Below, in pieces: positions 6,410 to 21,012 of a stretch of DNA of 36,648 bases (its first letter is position 1; each line of letters starts with the position of its first letter). Made by a program: the position numbers and the translations under genes. This stretch comes from Gammaproteobacteria bacterium (GTDB lineage Bacteria; Pseudomonadota; Gammaproteobacteria; Ga0077536), in NCBI GenBank assembly GCA_019747795.1, contig JAIEQK010000200.1:1-36648 (forward strand), given 5' to 3'. The notes beneath the pieces are model-generated. The model had not been told where the DNA came from. It saw nothing but the letters and a program-made list of their open reading frames with translations, and made no database searches.

Positions 6410-7420
6410 TCAACCGCGTCGCGGCGGAAACACCGGGAAATACGTCGCGCGCGCCACCACGGTGATCCAGCGCAGCAGTTCCGAGAAGATGGTCGGCTGA
6501 CGCGCGCCGCCGGTGTCCGGCGCTTCGCCTTGCAGCGCGAGCGGCGCGGCGCGGGCGTAGAGCGCCGCGCAGCCGAGGTAATGCCCCTGTTGGGCGAGGT
6601 GAATGCGATTCACGGTCTCCAGCACGCGCTGGAAGAAGGCTTCGTTCATGCGCCAGCCGTAGCGTCCCTCGCCGCGGCCGAGCGACAGGTCGCCCATGCC
6701 CTGCCACAGCGGCGCGTCGGGATCGGGCGTGCAAGCGCTGGCCAGGCTGACGAAGGCGATGAGGCTGCCGCTGCCGATGCGGAACAGGAGCTCGCGTGTG
6801 GCGAGCCACAGCTCGTTCAGGGTCTCGCGATCGATGGGCGTCCCGGTCAGCTCGCGCCAGGCGCCGGGCAGTCGCCACAGGAGATTCCAGCACAGCGTGA
6901 TGGCGGTCGTGGTGCCGCCCATCACCAGCGTGGGCGCATTGGCGCCGACCGGCGAATCGCTCTCGTCGCGATGGGGAAGCAGAGTGCGCAGCGACACGTA
7001 GCGCTCCGCGTCCACCGCGTAGCGCAACGGGCAGCCCATGCCCGCGCCGCGCAATTCGGTCGCCCAGGTGGCCGTCGCCGCATTCAGCAACTCGCTCATC
7101 ACCCGCATGGGCGCGAGCACGCCGAGCGCGAACACGTCGTTGCCGGCCAGCGCGCGTAGCTCCGGGTCGCGTCGCGCATCGTCCAGGCTGCGTCGCGCGC
7201 CGTCCAGTTCGAAGCTCATGCCGAGTCCCTTCGGATCGGCCGCCACCAGGCGCGCAACCTGCGGCCAGAACGCTTCGATGTAGGCCACGCTCTCGTGGCT
7301 CGCGGCCACCGGCGGCGGCAGCGGCGGCTCGGCGTGATGGCGCAGGCGAGTGAACATCGCGTTTACCGCGTCCAGGATGAGTTCGACTTCGTGTTCCTGA
7401 GCGGCAGGGGTATCTGGCAT
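6410..7420 (-). CDS. hypothetical protein, unrecognised family
   Basis: 336 residues, no signal peptide or clear membrane span; one hydrophobic stretch is TLVMGGTTTAITLCWNLLW in the middle. Notable conserved-looking parts are GAGMGCPLRYAVDAERYVSL, RIGSGSLIAFVSLASACTP and a Pro-rich N-terminal third. I do not recognise a family. The frame is clean with normal codon use for the window, so it is probably real. It stands alone between a REP-like element and a terminator-like hairpin that closes an upstream short gene on the same strand. No strong ribosome-binding site precedes the ATG at 7420. Confidence 0.7.
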   Translation of the reverse strand: MPDTPAAQEHEVELILDAVNAMFTRLRHHAEPPLPPPVAASHESVAYIEAFWPQVARLVAADPKGLGMSFELDGARRSLDDARRDPELRALAGNDVFALGVLAPMRVMSELLNAATATWATELRGAGMGCPLRYAVDAERYVSLRTLLPHRDESDSPVGANAPTLVMGGTTTAITLCWNLLWRLPGAWRELTGTPIDRETLNELWLATRELLFRIGSGSLIAFVSLASACTPDPDAPLWQGMGDLSLGRGEGRYGWRMNEAFFQRVLETVNRIHLAQQGHYLGCAALYARAAPLALQGEAPDTGGARQPTIFSELLRWITVVARATYFPVFPPRRG

Positions 7421-7465
7421 GCTCGAATCCGGCTATGAAAGCGCGCGCGGGGCGCGCAATGAAGA

Positions 7466-7485
7466 AGGGCCGCTTGCGCGGCCCT
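7466..7485 (-). terminator. intrinsic terminator-like hairpin after the 23-codon ORF
   Basis: A perfect 8-bp stem (AGGGCCGC / GCGGCCCT) closes a 4-nt loop that reads GCAA on the minus strand, a GNRA-type tetraloop. It is followed on that strand by TCTTC, a weak T-tract. It lies 59 nt after the stop of the short ORF at 7545-7616 and 45 nt before the start of the 336-residue gene, so it could terminate or attenuate. Confidence 0.55.
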
Positions 7486-7544
7486 CCGTGAGATTTGCTA
7501 TCCGCGCACCGCGTCTGTCGGTCGCATGATGGCCGGAACCGCGG

Positions 7545-7616
7545 CTAGGCCGACGCTCCCGTCCTCGAACCAAGATCCAACGCACGCACGGATATCACGA
7601 TAATCTCACTAGACAT
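7545..7616 (-). CDS. short ORF of 23 codons with near-perfect Shine-Dalgarno
   Basis: An ATG at 7616 opens a 23-codon frame starting MSSEIIVISVRALD and ending GASA before TAG. It is preceded by AAAGGAGGTGATCC (7631-7618), a 14-nt complement of the 16S rRNA 3' end, with about 7 nt from the core GGAGG to the ATG. A promoter-like pair and a terminator-like hairpin bracket it, giving a predicted transcript of roughly 180 nt. The peptide is hydrophobic at the front (EIIVISV) and polar at the back. I recognise no family. It could be a real microprotein, a peptide precursor, or a leader peptide controlling the 336-residue gene downstream. Codon statistics cannot decide at this length. Confidence 0.5.
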   Translation of the reverse strand: MSSEIIVISVRALDLGSRTGASA

Positions 7617-7654
7617 TGGATCACCTCCTTTGCATTACCGTTGAACAGGGTTCG

Positions 7655-7684
7655 AGTATGGAGCGAACAGCGTCGCGAGGTAAA
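7655..7684 (-). promoter_or_regulatory. candidate sigma-70 promoter for the 23-codon ORF
   Basis: On the minus strand TTTACC (7684-7679) and CATACT (7660-7655) are 18 bp apart and would start transcription near 7648, about 17 nt upstream of the strong ribosome-binding site. Matches to consensus are moderate. Confidence 0.35.
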
Positions 7685-16136: not shown

Positions 16137-17576
16137 ATGGATACGCCCTCGGCCGATCCCGGGGCGGCGCGCCAGGCGCTGCTGCGTCGCGTGCCCGGCG
16201 TCGACGAAGTGTTGCGCGACCCGGCGCTGAAGGCGCTGTGCACGGCCCACGGGCGCGAACTGGTGACGGCCGAACTGAGGGCGGTGATCGAGGCCGCGCG
16301 CGAGGCGCTGGCCGCCGAAGGCGAAGCTGCCGCGGCGGGTGCAGCGAGCCCTGCGCTGGTCGCGGCCACTCGCGAGCGCGTGGCGGCGCTGCTCGCATCG
16401 TCGTTCAAGCCGGTGTTCAACCTGACCGGTACGGTGCTGCACACCAATCTTGGTCGTGCGCCGCTGCCGGAGGAAGCCATCGAGGCGATGGCCGCGGTGG
16501 CGCGTGGCGCCAGCAACCTGGAATTCGATCTCGCCACCGGTCGGCGCGGCGATCGCGACACGCACCTCGAGGACTGGCTGCGTCGCCTGACCGGCGCCGA
16601 GGCCGCCACCGTGGTCAACAACAACGCCGCCGCCGTGCTGCTCGCGCTGGCCGCGCTGGCGCGCGGCCGCGAGGTGCTGGTGTCGCGGGGTGAACTGGTC
16701 GAGATCGGCGGTGCGTTCCGCATTCCCGACGTGATGGCCCGCGCCGGCGCGAAGCTGGTCGAGGTCGGCACCACCAATCGCACCCACGCCAAGGATTTCG
16801 CCGAGGCCATCGGGCCACGCACCGCGGCGGTGATGAAGGTGCACACCAGCAACTACGCGATCCAGGGCTTCACCAAGGCGGTGCCGGAGGCGGAGCTCGC
16901 GGCGCTCGCCCACGCCCACGGTCTGCCCTTCATCGTGGATCTCGGCAGCGGCACGCTGATCGATCTCGCGCGCTTCGGCCTGCCCCACGAGACCACCGTG
17001 GCCGAGACCTTGGCCGCCGGCGCGGATCTGGTCACCTTCAGCGGCGACAAGCTGCTGGGCGGGCCGCAGGCCGGCATCGTCGCCGGGCGCGCGGACCTGG
17101 TCGCGAAGCTGAAGAAGAACCCGCTGAAGCGCGCGCTGCGCGTCGACAAGATGACGCTCGCGGCGCTGGCCGCCGTGCTCCGTCTGTACGCCGACCCCGC
17201 GCTCGCCGCGGAGCGCGTGCCGGCCCTGCGCCTGCTGCTGCGGCCGGAAGCCGAGATAGCGGCTATCGCCACGCGACTCGCGCCGAGCCTCGCCACGCGC
17301 CTGGGCGCACGCGCGACGGTCATGGTGCGGCCGTGCATGAGCCAGATCGGCAGCGGCGCGCTGCCGGTCGACCTGTTGCCGAGCGCGGCGCTGGTCATCA
17401 CCCTGCCGACGGCGCGCGGTCGCGCGCTGGAACGACTCGCCGCCGAACTGCGCGCCTTGCCCATGCCGATCATCGGCCGCGTGGGCGACGGCGCGCTGTG
17501 GCTCGATCTCCGCACCCTGGTCGACGAAGCGGCCTTCATCGCCAACCTCGCCGCGCTCGAGGCGCGCGCCTCGTGA
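16137..17576 (+). CDS. selA: L-seryl-tRNA(Sec) selenium transferase
   Basis: 479 residues. SelA converts Ser-tRNA(Sec) to Sec-tRNA(Sec) with selenophosphate, using PLP. Visible blocks are [21 protein letters not shown] near 97-117, [43 protein letters not shown] and [14 protein letters not shown], where Lys305 is the PLP-binding lysine. The N-terminal helical domain that contacts tRNA is present, so the gene is full length. It overlaps selB by 4 nt (GTGA), and tRNA-Sec lies 3.3 kb downstream on the same strand. Confidence 0.96.
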
Positions 17577-19477
17577 TCGTCGCCAGCGCCGGCCACGTCG
17601 ATCACGGCAAGACCCTGCTGGTGAAGGCGCTGACCGGCGTCGACACCGACGCGCTGCCGGAAGAGAAGGCGCGCGGGCTGACCATCGACCTGGGGTTCGC
17701 CTACCGCGACCTCGGCGACGGCGAGCCCACCGGCTTCATCGACGTGCCGGGCCACGAGCGCTTCGTGCGCACCATGGTGGCGGGCGTGAGCGGGATCGAC
17801 GTCGTGATGTTCGTCGTCGCGGCCGACGACGGTCCGATGCCGCAGACCGCCGAGCACCTCGCCATCCTGGACCTGCTCGGCGTGACCCGCGGCGTGGTGG
17901 CGCTCAGCAAGGTCGACCGGGTGGACGCCGCGCGCGTCGCCGAGGTCCTGGCGCAGATCCGCGCGCTGCTCGCGCCGACCGCGCTGGCCGAGTTGCCCAT
18001 CGTGCCGGTGTCGGCCGTGACCGGCGTGGGCGTGGAGACGCTCCGCGAACACCTGCTCGCCTTGAAGCGCGCGCTGCCGCCGCGGCCGGTGCGTGGCAAC
18101 TTCCGTCTCGCCATCGATCGCAGTTTCCTGCTGAAGGGCGCCGGCCGCATCGTCACCGGCACGGTGTTCAGCGGGCAGGTGGCGGTGGGCGACGCCGTTC
18201 ACCACGTGCCGGGCGGCGGCGAGGTGCGCGTGCGCGGTCTGCACGCCCACAACCGCGAGGCGGCCACCGCGCACGCCGGCCAGCGCTGCGCGCTCAACAT
18301 CACCGGCACGGGCCTGCGCGAGGGGGATCTCAAGCGCGGTGACTGGATGGTGGCCGCCGACGCCGCCTGCGCGAGCCAGCGTCTCGACGTGGAGATCCGC
18401 GTCTTGCCCGACGAGCCGCGCGCGCTCGCCAACCGCACGCCGGTGCACGTGCATCTTGGCGCCGCGGACGTCACTGGGCGCCTCGTGACCCTGGATGGGC
18501 AGGCCATCGCGCCCGGCGGGCGCGGCCTCGCGCAGCTGCAGCTCGATCGGCCCATGCACGCGCTGCGCGCCGACCGGCTGGTGCTGCGCGACCAGTCCGC
18601 GCGTCGCACGCTGGGCGGCGGCGTGGTGATCGATCCTCTGCCCGACATGCGCGGCCGCTCGCGGGACGAGCGGCGCGCCTGCCTGGCCGCGATGGCCGCA
18701 AGCAGCGCGGCCGAGGCATTGCCCGCGATGCTGGAGGCGCTGCCCGGCGGGCTCGACCTGGATGCCTTCTGCCGCGCCTGGAACCTGGCCAGCGCGGAGC
18801 GCGAGGCCGTGCTCGCGGCGGTGCCGCTGCGTCATTGCGGCAGCAGTGCCATCGCGCTCGCCGAAACGCGTTGGCAGGCGCTCGAGACCCTCGCGCTGGA
18901 GGCGCTGCGCGCCTTCCACCGGGCGCAACCGGAAGTCCTCGGCCAGGGCGAGCGTGAACTCGAGCGCGGGCTGCGCCAGCGCCTGCTGCCCGGCGTGTTC
19001 GCGAGCGTGGTCGAAGCCGCCGTGAGCGCCGGTCGCATCGTGCGCGATGGCGCGGTGCTGCGTCTGCCGGAGCACGCGCCGCGCCGCTCGCACGCCGACG
19101 AGGCGCTGTGGAAGCGCGTGCGTCCGCTGCTCGCCGACGATGAATTGAAGGCGCCGGTGGTGCACGACCTCGCGACGCCGCTCAAGATGAACGCTGCGCT
19201 GCTGGATGCCTTCCTGATGCGCGCCGCGAAGCAGGGCCTGGTGGTGAAGGTCAGCGCCAAGCGCTACTTCCTGCCGAGCGCCATGGCGCGCTTCGAGTCG
19301 GTGGTGCGCGAACTCGCCGCGCGACCGCCTCGAGGGCAGTTCACCGCGGCCGAGTTCCGCGACCGCGTCGGCATTGGCCGCAACGCCGTCATCGAGATCC
19401 TCGAATACTTCGATCGCATTGGCCTCACCCATCGCGCGGGCGACCTGCGCACCCTGCTCGACGTGAAACGGCGCTGA
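17573..19477 (+). CDS. selB: selenocysteine-specific elongation factor SelB
   Basis: 634 residues from a GTG at 17573 that overlaps the selA stop; upstream codons in this frame merely shadow selA. GTPase motifs: G1 GHVDHGKT (7-14), the GLTID switch, G3 DVPGHE (57-62) and a G4 of SKVD (112-115, more often NKxD). Domains II and III follow to about 340, then the winged-helix repeats that bind the SECIS hairpin, including the final [20 protein letters not shown] and ALIEILEYF-like helix. SelB delivers Sec-tRNA(Sec) to UGA codons on the ribosome. Confidence 0.96.
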
Positions 19478-19510
19478 CGCCTGCGCCCCGTCGTCCTTGA
19501 AGGAGGAATC

Positions 19511-20746
19511 ATGAAATCACTCTCGCTGGATCTGCCGCAGGGCCACCTCGAAGGCGTGTACGACGACCGCTTCGCGGCCGTCGCCGAAGCCTTCATCGCC
19601 AACTTCAGCGAGCGCGACGAGGTCGGCGCGAGCGTCGCGCTGACGCTGGAGGGACGCACGGTGGTGGACCTGTGGGGCGGCCGTCGCGCCCGGGACGACG
19701 CGCCCTGGCAGCGCGACACCGTGTGCACGGTGTTCTCCGCCACCAAGGGCGCGATGGCGCTGTGCGCGCACATCCTGGCCGACCGCGGTCTGTTGGATCT
19801 CGACGCGCCGATAAGCGATTACTGGCCGGAATTCGCCTGCAATGGCAAGGAAGACGCGCGCGTCGGCATGACGCTCGATCACTCGGTCGGCGTGCCCCAC
19901 CTGCGCGGCGAAGTGCCGCCGGGCGGCTTCTACGACTACGACACGATGGTGCGGCGGGTGGCGGAGGAGCCGGCTTTCTGGGCGCCGGGCTCGCGCCAGG
20001 GTTATCACGCCATCACCATGGCCTGGACCGTGGGCGAACTCGTGCACCGCGCCGCGGGGCGGCGTCTGGGGCGCGTGCTGGCCGAGGACGTGGCCGGACC
20101 GCTCGGCATCGAGTTCTGGATCGGCATTCCCGCCGACATCGCGCCACGGGTCTCGCCGATGATCAACGCCGCGCCGGATGATGCATGGCTCGCGACGCGC
20201 TTCGTCAAGGCCGCGCTCGGTGAGCCCGGCACGCCGACTCAACTTTTCATGCGCGACTTCCTGCTGGTCAATCCCAACGACCCGGCCTGCCACGCCGCGG
20301 AGATCGGCTCGGCCAACGGCATCGCCAACGGCCGCGCGCTGGCCGGCATGTACGCGCCGCTCGCGAACGGCGGCAGCATCAACGGCGTGCGCCTGGTCGG
20401 GCCCGACACGCTCGCGCGCATGGGCCGCACCAGCATGGCGACGCGCGACGACGTCACGCTGCGCACGCCCATGCGTTTCTCCGAGGGCTTCATGAAGGCG
20501 GTCGACAATCGCCGCGTGCCGGGCACCGTGAACTCGTCACTCATCATCGGCGACGCCGCCTTCGGCCACGTCGGGGCGGGCGGTTCTGTCGGCTTCGCCG
20601 ACCCTGACTGCCGCATGAGCTTCGGCTACGCGATGAACCGCATGGGCACCGGCCTGCTGCTGAACGAGCGCGGACAGGCGCTGGTGGACGCGGCCTACGG
20701 CGCGCTCGGCCTGCGTTCCGACACCAGCGGCGCGTGGTGTGGCTGA
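19511..20746 (+). CDS. serine hydrolase, class C beta-lactamase/esterase family
   Basis: 411 residues. The SxxK motif FSATKG (Ser76, Lys79) and a Tyr motif GYHAITMAWTVGELV (Tyr165) mark the penicillin-recognising / EstB-like fold. No signal peptide is visible, so a cytoplasmic esterase is more likely than a secreted lactamase; the late GHVGAGGSVGFADPDCRMSFGYAMNRM replaces the KTG box with a His-Gly form typical of the esterase branch. A very good ribosome-binding site, AAGGAGG at 19500-19506, precedes the ATG. It sits between selB and tRNA-Sec, perhaps by chance; no link with selenium is known. Confidence 0.88.
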   Translation: MKSLSLDLPQGHLEGVYDDRFAAVAEAFIANFSERDEVGASVALTLEGRTVVDLWGGRRARDDAPWQRDTVCTVFSATKGAMALCAHILADRGLLDLDAPISDYWPEFACNGKEDARVGMTLDHSVGVPHLRGEVPPGGFYDYDTMVRRVAEEPAFWAPGSRQGYHAITMAWTVGELVHRAAGRRLGRVLAEDVAGPLGIEFWIGIPADIAPRVSPMINAAPDDAWLATRFVKAALGEPGTPTQLFMRDFLLVNPNDPACHAAEIGSANGIANGRALAGMYAPLANGGSINGVRLVGPDTLARMGRTSMATRDDVTLRTPMRFSEGFMKAVDNRRVPGTVNSSLIIGDAAFGHVGAGGSVGFADPDCRMSFGYAMNRMGTGLLLNERGQALVDAAYGALGLRSDTSGAWCG

Positions 20747-20764
20747 GGTGCGCCGACAGCGCGC

Positions 20765-20861
20765 GTAGGTCGCCCTGTAGGTCGGACTTCAGTCCGACAT
20801 TCATTCTTCAAGGCTCTGGAAGGCATGTCGCACTGAAGTGCGACCTACAGTCCGACCTACA
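20765..20861. repeat. REP-like cluster, one intact arm and degenerate copies
   Basis: The arm at 20776-20802 is identical to the arm at 6299-6325. The opposite arm at 20824-20849 is diverged: its palindrome reads GTCGCACTGAAGTGCGAC, so both sides of the stem changed together. Partial copies flank it, GTAGGTCG at 20765 and GTCCGACCTACA near 20850-20861. It lies between a hydrolase gene and the tRNA-Sec promoter. Confidence 0.8.
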
Positions 20862-20879
20862 GGAACACCCGCCGCCCCC

Positions 20880-20908
20880 TTGGCAAGCACTGAACCCCAC
20901 GCTTAGCA
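20880..20908 (+). promoter_or_regulatory. candidate sigma-70 promoter of tRNA-Sec
   Basis: TTGGCA (20880-20885) and TTAGCA (20903-20908) are 17 bp apart. Transcription would start near 20915, two bases before the mature 5' end of the tRNA. Confidence 0.6.
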
Positions 20909-20916
20909 TGGACGGC

Positions 20917-21012
20917 GGAAGAGCATCGTCACCCGGTGGGACGCCCGGACTTCAAATCCGGTGAGACGCACGCAGGTGTGTCTGGCAGGTTCGACTCCTG
21001 CCTCTTTCGCCA
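20917..21012 (+). tRNA. selC: tRNA-Sec (anticodon TCA)
   Basis: 96 nt including an encoded CCA. The anticodon loop CTTCAAA (20950-20956) holds TCA at 20952-20954 within the 5-bp stem CCGGA/TCCGG. The long variable arm pairs AGACGCAC with GTGTGTCT. The T arm is GCAGG TTCGACT CCTGC. The D arm CGTCAC/GGGACG is a 6-bp stem with one A-G mismatch. The acceptor GGAAGAG pairs with CTCTTTC with one G-T wobble; only 12 nt lie between T loop and discriminator G, one fewer than in E. coli. It inserts selenocysteine with SelA and SelB. Confidence 0.95.

Follow-up and report, generated by a model that had tools for sequence, protein, structure and literature searches.

Layout of the locus

The feature described here is a putative small RNA of approximately 188 nt, encoded on the minus strand at 7461..7648 of the window, by which we mean the whole stretch of 36,648 nucleotides that was analysed; it extends from a putative start site to the tail of a terminator, and all elements of the unit lie on this strand. 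Key to the locus is its Shine-Dalgarno (SD) sequence, AAAGGAGGTGATCC (7618..7631), which a one-base spacer, A7617, separates from the ATG (7616-7614) of an open reading frame (ORF) of 23 codons, MSSEIIVISVRALDLGSRTGASA (7545..7616), closed by TAG (7547-7545). The usual proteobacterial 16S rRNA tail is GGATCACCTCCTTT, of which AAAGGAGGTGATCC is the exact and full complement over 14 nt; a 16S copy of GGATCACCTCCTTT was not found in this 5.9 Mb assembly. Within the window no second match to AAAGGAGGTGATCC exists with 2 mismatches or fewer (shuffled sequences give 0.07), and in the 5.9 Mb genome both the exact sequence and the looser pattern AAGGAGGTGA-N3-9-ATG occur once, the site at 7618-7631 being the strongest ribosome-binding site of the genome. 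The original prediction, which described a 14-nt complement of the 16S tail ahead of a 23-codon frame and considered so strong a site to be rare, is confirmed on both points by sequence.

Upstream of the SD, a -10-like element, CATACT (7655..7660), is accompanied by a weak -35-like hexamer, TTTACC (7679..7684; 4/6), as read from the sequence only. The promoter-like pair originally proposed proved weak as a whole, with 8 of 12 consensus bases and no match at CATACT/TTTACC in a consensus promoter scan; what stands is the downstream element, for which most members of the window's family have ATACT equally far from the SD. The GNRA-loop hairpin predicted downstream is real and has a GCAA loop, lying at 7485-7466, outside the interval 7545-7684 of the original prediction. 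A simple terminator scan left this hairpin, AGGGCCGC-GCAA-GCGGCCCT (7466..7485), unlisted; its alignment among relatives, where it is conserved with compensatory pair changes, shows it to be an intrinsic terminator, and together with the tail TCTTC it occupies 7485-7461. The putative limits of the transcript are supported by the -10-like element, the core and the terminator, each of which is conserved in relatives. Elsewhere in the window, a selenocysteine cluster occupies 16137-21008 on the plus strand, with selA at 16137-17576, selB within 17333-19477 and tRNA-Sec at 20917-21008.

Distribution and relation to the CC2171 family

Searches at the DNA level recovered in relatives both the terminator and a 29-base block, 7631-7603, that is identical in several genera, and the SD itself is near-invariant in the window's family and in relatives derived from the RF01867 search. 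The combined SD and start pattern is present in exactly one copy each in 27 of the 36 genomes of the window's family, such that the frame and ribosome site, which the original prediction proposed to seek in related genomes, are indeed conserved there; beyond this family the pattern was absent from more than 360 other sampled Gammaproteobacteria. In the named collection at least 117 stretches carry it, mostly from Alpha- and Gammaproteobacteria, the taxa including Rhizobiales, Hyphomonadaceae, SAR116, Hyphomicrobium, Woeseiaceae and other gammaproteobacterial MAGs. A looser pattern added two more families outside the class, one with ATGTCTCATGG and 15-18 codons, the other starting at GTG and running for 18 codons. 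A short ORF follows in all but approximately two of the pattern loci, which we take to be chance matches, the terminator is recognisable in most, and a peptide start of the form MSS[EDG] is common to relatives. As judged from these alignments, the transcript unit comprising core, ORF and terminator is conserved.

Since 2.9 million viral contigs gave a single pattern match, the element looks chromosomal, and a virus-borne origin was rejected; a plasmid search with one Mesorhizobium-type peptide gave no match. Two database labels also attracted attention. The record CAMCBY010000449.1, labelled as a Klebsiella pneumoniae MAG, agrees in length with C449, a contig of genome G001 from the window's genus, and holds the same element; its label looks wrong. 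LNFC01000009.1, labelled Acidobacteria, is probably mislabelled, as both its copy of the element and the neighbours are Hyphomonas-like.

At gathering thresholds, Rfam has no match at the 7461..7648 unit. In E-value mode, the covariance model of CC2171 (RF01867) aligned 7640-7467 over its full length (1-159 of 159) with E 4.6e-6 in a 261-base stretch and a score of 34.8 bits, far under the family's gathering score of 75 bits, and a search of all 5.9 Mb gave the window element (E 2.5e-5) as the only match of this model. Alphaproteobacterial relatives identified through the pattern search also match RF01867, many of them below the cut-off, and loci exceeding the cut-off have the same core and an ORF of 21-27 codons with a GTG start. 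The window element shares with CC2171 the core AAGGAGGTGATCC followed by the start codon and TGTC, the terminator, a similar length, and a helix in the position of P1 (see below) that joins post-start bases to pre-terminator bases; it is unlike CC2171 in its score, its ATG start and its occurrence in Gammaproteobacteria. We therefore classify the element, on the chain of searches linking the two, as CC2171-like and a distant homologue, and, because the gathering score is not reached, not as a formal RF01867 member.

In 200 sampled genomes, RF01867 matches 37 at E <= 0.01, of which only 7 pass the 75-bit cut-off. Some genomes outside the class (G418 and G503) contain more than one RF01867-like locus, either two or three, whose ORFs differ, which suggests sibling RNAs; those of G418 include L204 and C1:2921849-2922077. 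Two other described RNAs were considered and rejected: UpsM of Rhodobacter, which lies in the mraZ 5' UTR and thus in a different position, and whose sORF overlaps the terminator and is restricted to R. sphaeroides (PMC5089854), and PmaR of Agrobacterium, which has a C-rich loop and a narrow range (PMC6234868). A literature search on SD motifs in sRNAs found nothing relevant.

Constraint on the reading frame and the RNA fold

Among 60 representatives sharing <70% identity, ORFs range from 16 to 35 codons, with exactly 26 codons in 25 of them, and 58 fall within 18-32 codons compared with 14.8 +/- 3.3 in shuffles. For a more divergent set of 38 representatives (<60% body identity), 37 ORFs have 14-32 codons against 13.2 +/- 2.9 when shuffled and 8 and 4 in the other two frames, figures to be read with the provisos that in most loci the search pattern itself dictated the first four codons and that relatives are not fully independent. 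The end of the ORF is set mostly at 18-29 codons, and in the latter set every stop codon occurs (TAA 15, TGA 13, TAG 10).

The original prediction suggested, as one option, a highly translated small peptide; a functional peptide as the main point is not what the comparison supports: the start and length are kept and the amino acids are not. Between close relatives, the pN/pS of the ORF is 0.86, compared to 0.91 and 0.77 for the other frames, and changes are about equally distributed over the three codon positions (83/93/93). The search for synonymous-biased substitution that had been proposed detected no constraint on the peptide, with a pN/pS of 0.87 (bootstrap 0.70-1.11) that resembles those of other frames. 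In the terms applied to dual-function sRNAs, the ORF is selected to stay open and the peptide shows no selection. The claim that the peptide belongs to no known family agrees with searches of Pfam and NCBIfam, in which no family matches the 23 residues. Taken at the level of sequence comparison, selection acts on the open frame and on where it ends while the peptide is without detectable constraint, and as length is kept while the peptide drifts, this suggests that the act of translation, rather than its product, is what matters.

The RNA of the window folds better than shuffled sequences (z -3.7), and RNAalifold applied to the window's family predicts helix P1, the terminator, and an inner helix in which compensatory changes occur. 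P1 pairs codons 2-9 with the bases directly before the terminator; in the window its 5' strand, GTGAGAT (7603..7609), falls in codons 3-5, and its covarying partner, ATCTCAC (7488..7494), adjoins the terminator. Because P1 is nearly invariant inside the window's family, its support comes from a wider set of 70 relatives from all clades, including CC2171-type loci, in which the native duplex has -10.9 kcal/mol against -7.6 for swapped strands, a difference reached in 0 of 20,000 permutations (p < 5e-5). The pairing sequences differ between clades, with CATGG/CCATG and ATTGTC/GACAAT elsewhere in place of GTGAGAT/ATCTCAC, which amounts to strong covariation for a helix that lies inside the ORF.

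A second segment of the ORF, TTGGATC (7574..7580), is complementary in sequence to GATCCAA (7616-7622), which covers the 3' end of the SD, and the two could pair; the counterpart of TTGGATC reads GGATC or GGGTC in nearly all members of the window's family. In many alphaproteobacterial relatives the ORF or its vicinity contains a sequence that imperfectly repeats the 16S tail (GGAGCAGCCTCC; GGATCGTCACCTCC; GGATCACCTCC), which in 72 loci usually ends between 18 nt before and 2 nt after the stop. Predicted pairing of this anti-SD with the locus's own SD has a mean z of -1.04 relative to shuffles, and reaches p <= 0.05 in 18 of the 72; as these loci share ancestry, the figure is no more than suggestive of an internal anti-SD in relatives. 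In one locus, L193 (family f213), GGATCACCTCC directly after the ORF stop reproduces 11 nt of the 16S tail exactly, such that this RNA holds both this copy and the full complement of the tail. For the window, sequestration of the SD by an internal anti-SD is not above chance (-9.9 vs -11.9 in shuffles), leaving a clear switch of this kind unsupported there. An unusually exposed SD is likewise unsupported, the SD core being no more open in predicted folds than the remainder of the RNA.

Translation as the proposed function

The genomic neighbours bear on whether the RNA serves the gene that follows it, which encodes 336 residues at 6410-7420. The original prediction offered a leader as its second option; a transcription attenuator or leader peptide of this gene would fit the occurrence of the same downstream gene in both other genomes of the window's genus, but the gene adjoins the RNA only within that genus: several other genera have the RNA without it, in genome G008 the two are on different contigs, and in other clades different genes lie beside the RNA. 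Since neighbours change between genera while the RNA persists, the RNA is a stand-alone unit and not the leader of the next gene, and we regard attenuation as highly improbable. The original description of a self-contained gene is correct, and the ribosome site is conserved along with it. Leader-peptide attenuators such as trpL and ermCL remain similar in that translation of a short ORF would remodel the RNA in cis, and differ in that the window RNA has no conserved downstream gene.

Other explanations account for part of the evidence each. In a conventional small-protein gene, the 23-residue peptide would act and the strong SD would ensure high expression, as the conserved start, SD and open frame and the common MSS[EDG] beginning might imply; the absence of selection at the amino acid level argues against it, as do the reading of AGCAGCC, a conserved RNA motif of alphaproteobacterial loci, in all three frames, the clade-dependent lengths of 14 to 35 codons, and the conservation of the MSS codons also as RNA leading into P1, and we find such a gene distinctly unlikely. 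The established dual-function sRNAs (SR1/SR1P, SgrS/SgrT, Spot 42/SpfP, rnTrpL/peTrpL) resemble the element as small free RNAs with a short ORF and a terminator, but theirs is a peptide with its own role (see PMC10117765). Alternatively, the 14-nt SD could be a decoy or sponge that titrates free 30S subunits or anti-SD sRNAs of the SisA-D / alpha-r8 or cuckoo type, translation being secondary. The genome's strongest SD would suit this role, Caulobacter possesses anti-SD sRNAs and a sponge against them (PMC12559287), and rhizobia have sRNAs with anti-SD loops (PMC3927594), yet a sponge alone leaves the conserved ORF length and P1 unexplained and the window's family has no known anti-SD sRNA partner, which makes this explanation unlikely. 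The likeness to CrfA and SisA-D of Caulobacter, where SD/anti-SD complementarity operates in an alphaproteobacterial sRNA network (PMC12559287), is one of complementarity only, and no homology to CrfA is claimed. That the RNA is a purely non-coding, base-pairing sRNA with an incidental ORF would accord with Rfam, which types CC2171 as an sRNA gene and makes no reference to an ORF in its description line, and with M. huakuii MH_s33, annotated as CC2171, whose transcript was detected by RNA-seq (PMC5596092). Most Caulobacter ncRNAs are reported to be located in intergenic stretches found untranslated by ribosome profiling, which counts against the reading favoured below, and two earlier ncRNA predictions proved to be translated (Schrader et al. 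2014, PMC4117421). The constraint on ORF length, seen in 37 of the 38 divergent representatives, speaks against an incidental frame, and we hold this very unlikely. Finally, chance, or an origin as a misplaced piece or antisense copy of the 3' end of the 16S rRNA, would explain why the core complements the 16S tail, but 16S similarity appears to stop at about the 14-mer, and the conservation of the 29-base core and terminator in many genera leaves this idea with almost no credence.

The reading that we favour, and consider probable, is that the element is a free-standing small RNA of the CC2171 kind and at the same time a tiny mRNA, whose long-range fold is opened by ribosomes translating an ORF of neutral sequence. 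The maximal SD would capture 30S subunits, and initiation and elongation along the short ORF, which enters the 5' strand of P1, would melt this helix; in many alphaproteobacterial relatives ribosomes would also melt the anti-SD-like segment that lies in the ORF immediately ahead of the stop. Whether the RNA is closed or open would thereby depend on ribosome traffic. Most of a peptide of 14-32 residues would still be inside the ribosome exit tunnel, consistent with a product of no importance. Candidate outputs are the stability of the RNA, including its own decay, or a freed base-pairing 3' half acting in trans, and the RNA may also hold ribosomes. More tentatively, CC2171-like RNAs in general might be widespread translation-operated riboregulators, the maximal SD and the neutral ORF making their fold and activity report directly how available ribosomes are or in what state translation is. 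The stop would be placed such that the terminating ribosome keeps the internal anti-SD or long-range helix open; we think this somewhat doubtful as a general rule.

The locus, as the comparisons present it, is more interesting than a gene for a small peptide: a real and conserved RNA, distantly CC2171-like, whose ORF is constrained in length and neutral in sequence. As the gathering score of 75 leaves out most relatives, there is scope to broaden the RF01867 model and to record its coding potential. A family filed as non-coding and mainly Caulobacter-like reaches a large part of the Alphaproteobacteria and several gammaproteobacterial lineages that are uncultured. If the favoured reading is true, these RNAs would offer a clean natural case of a free small RNA in which translating, and not the peptide, is the function.
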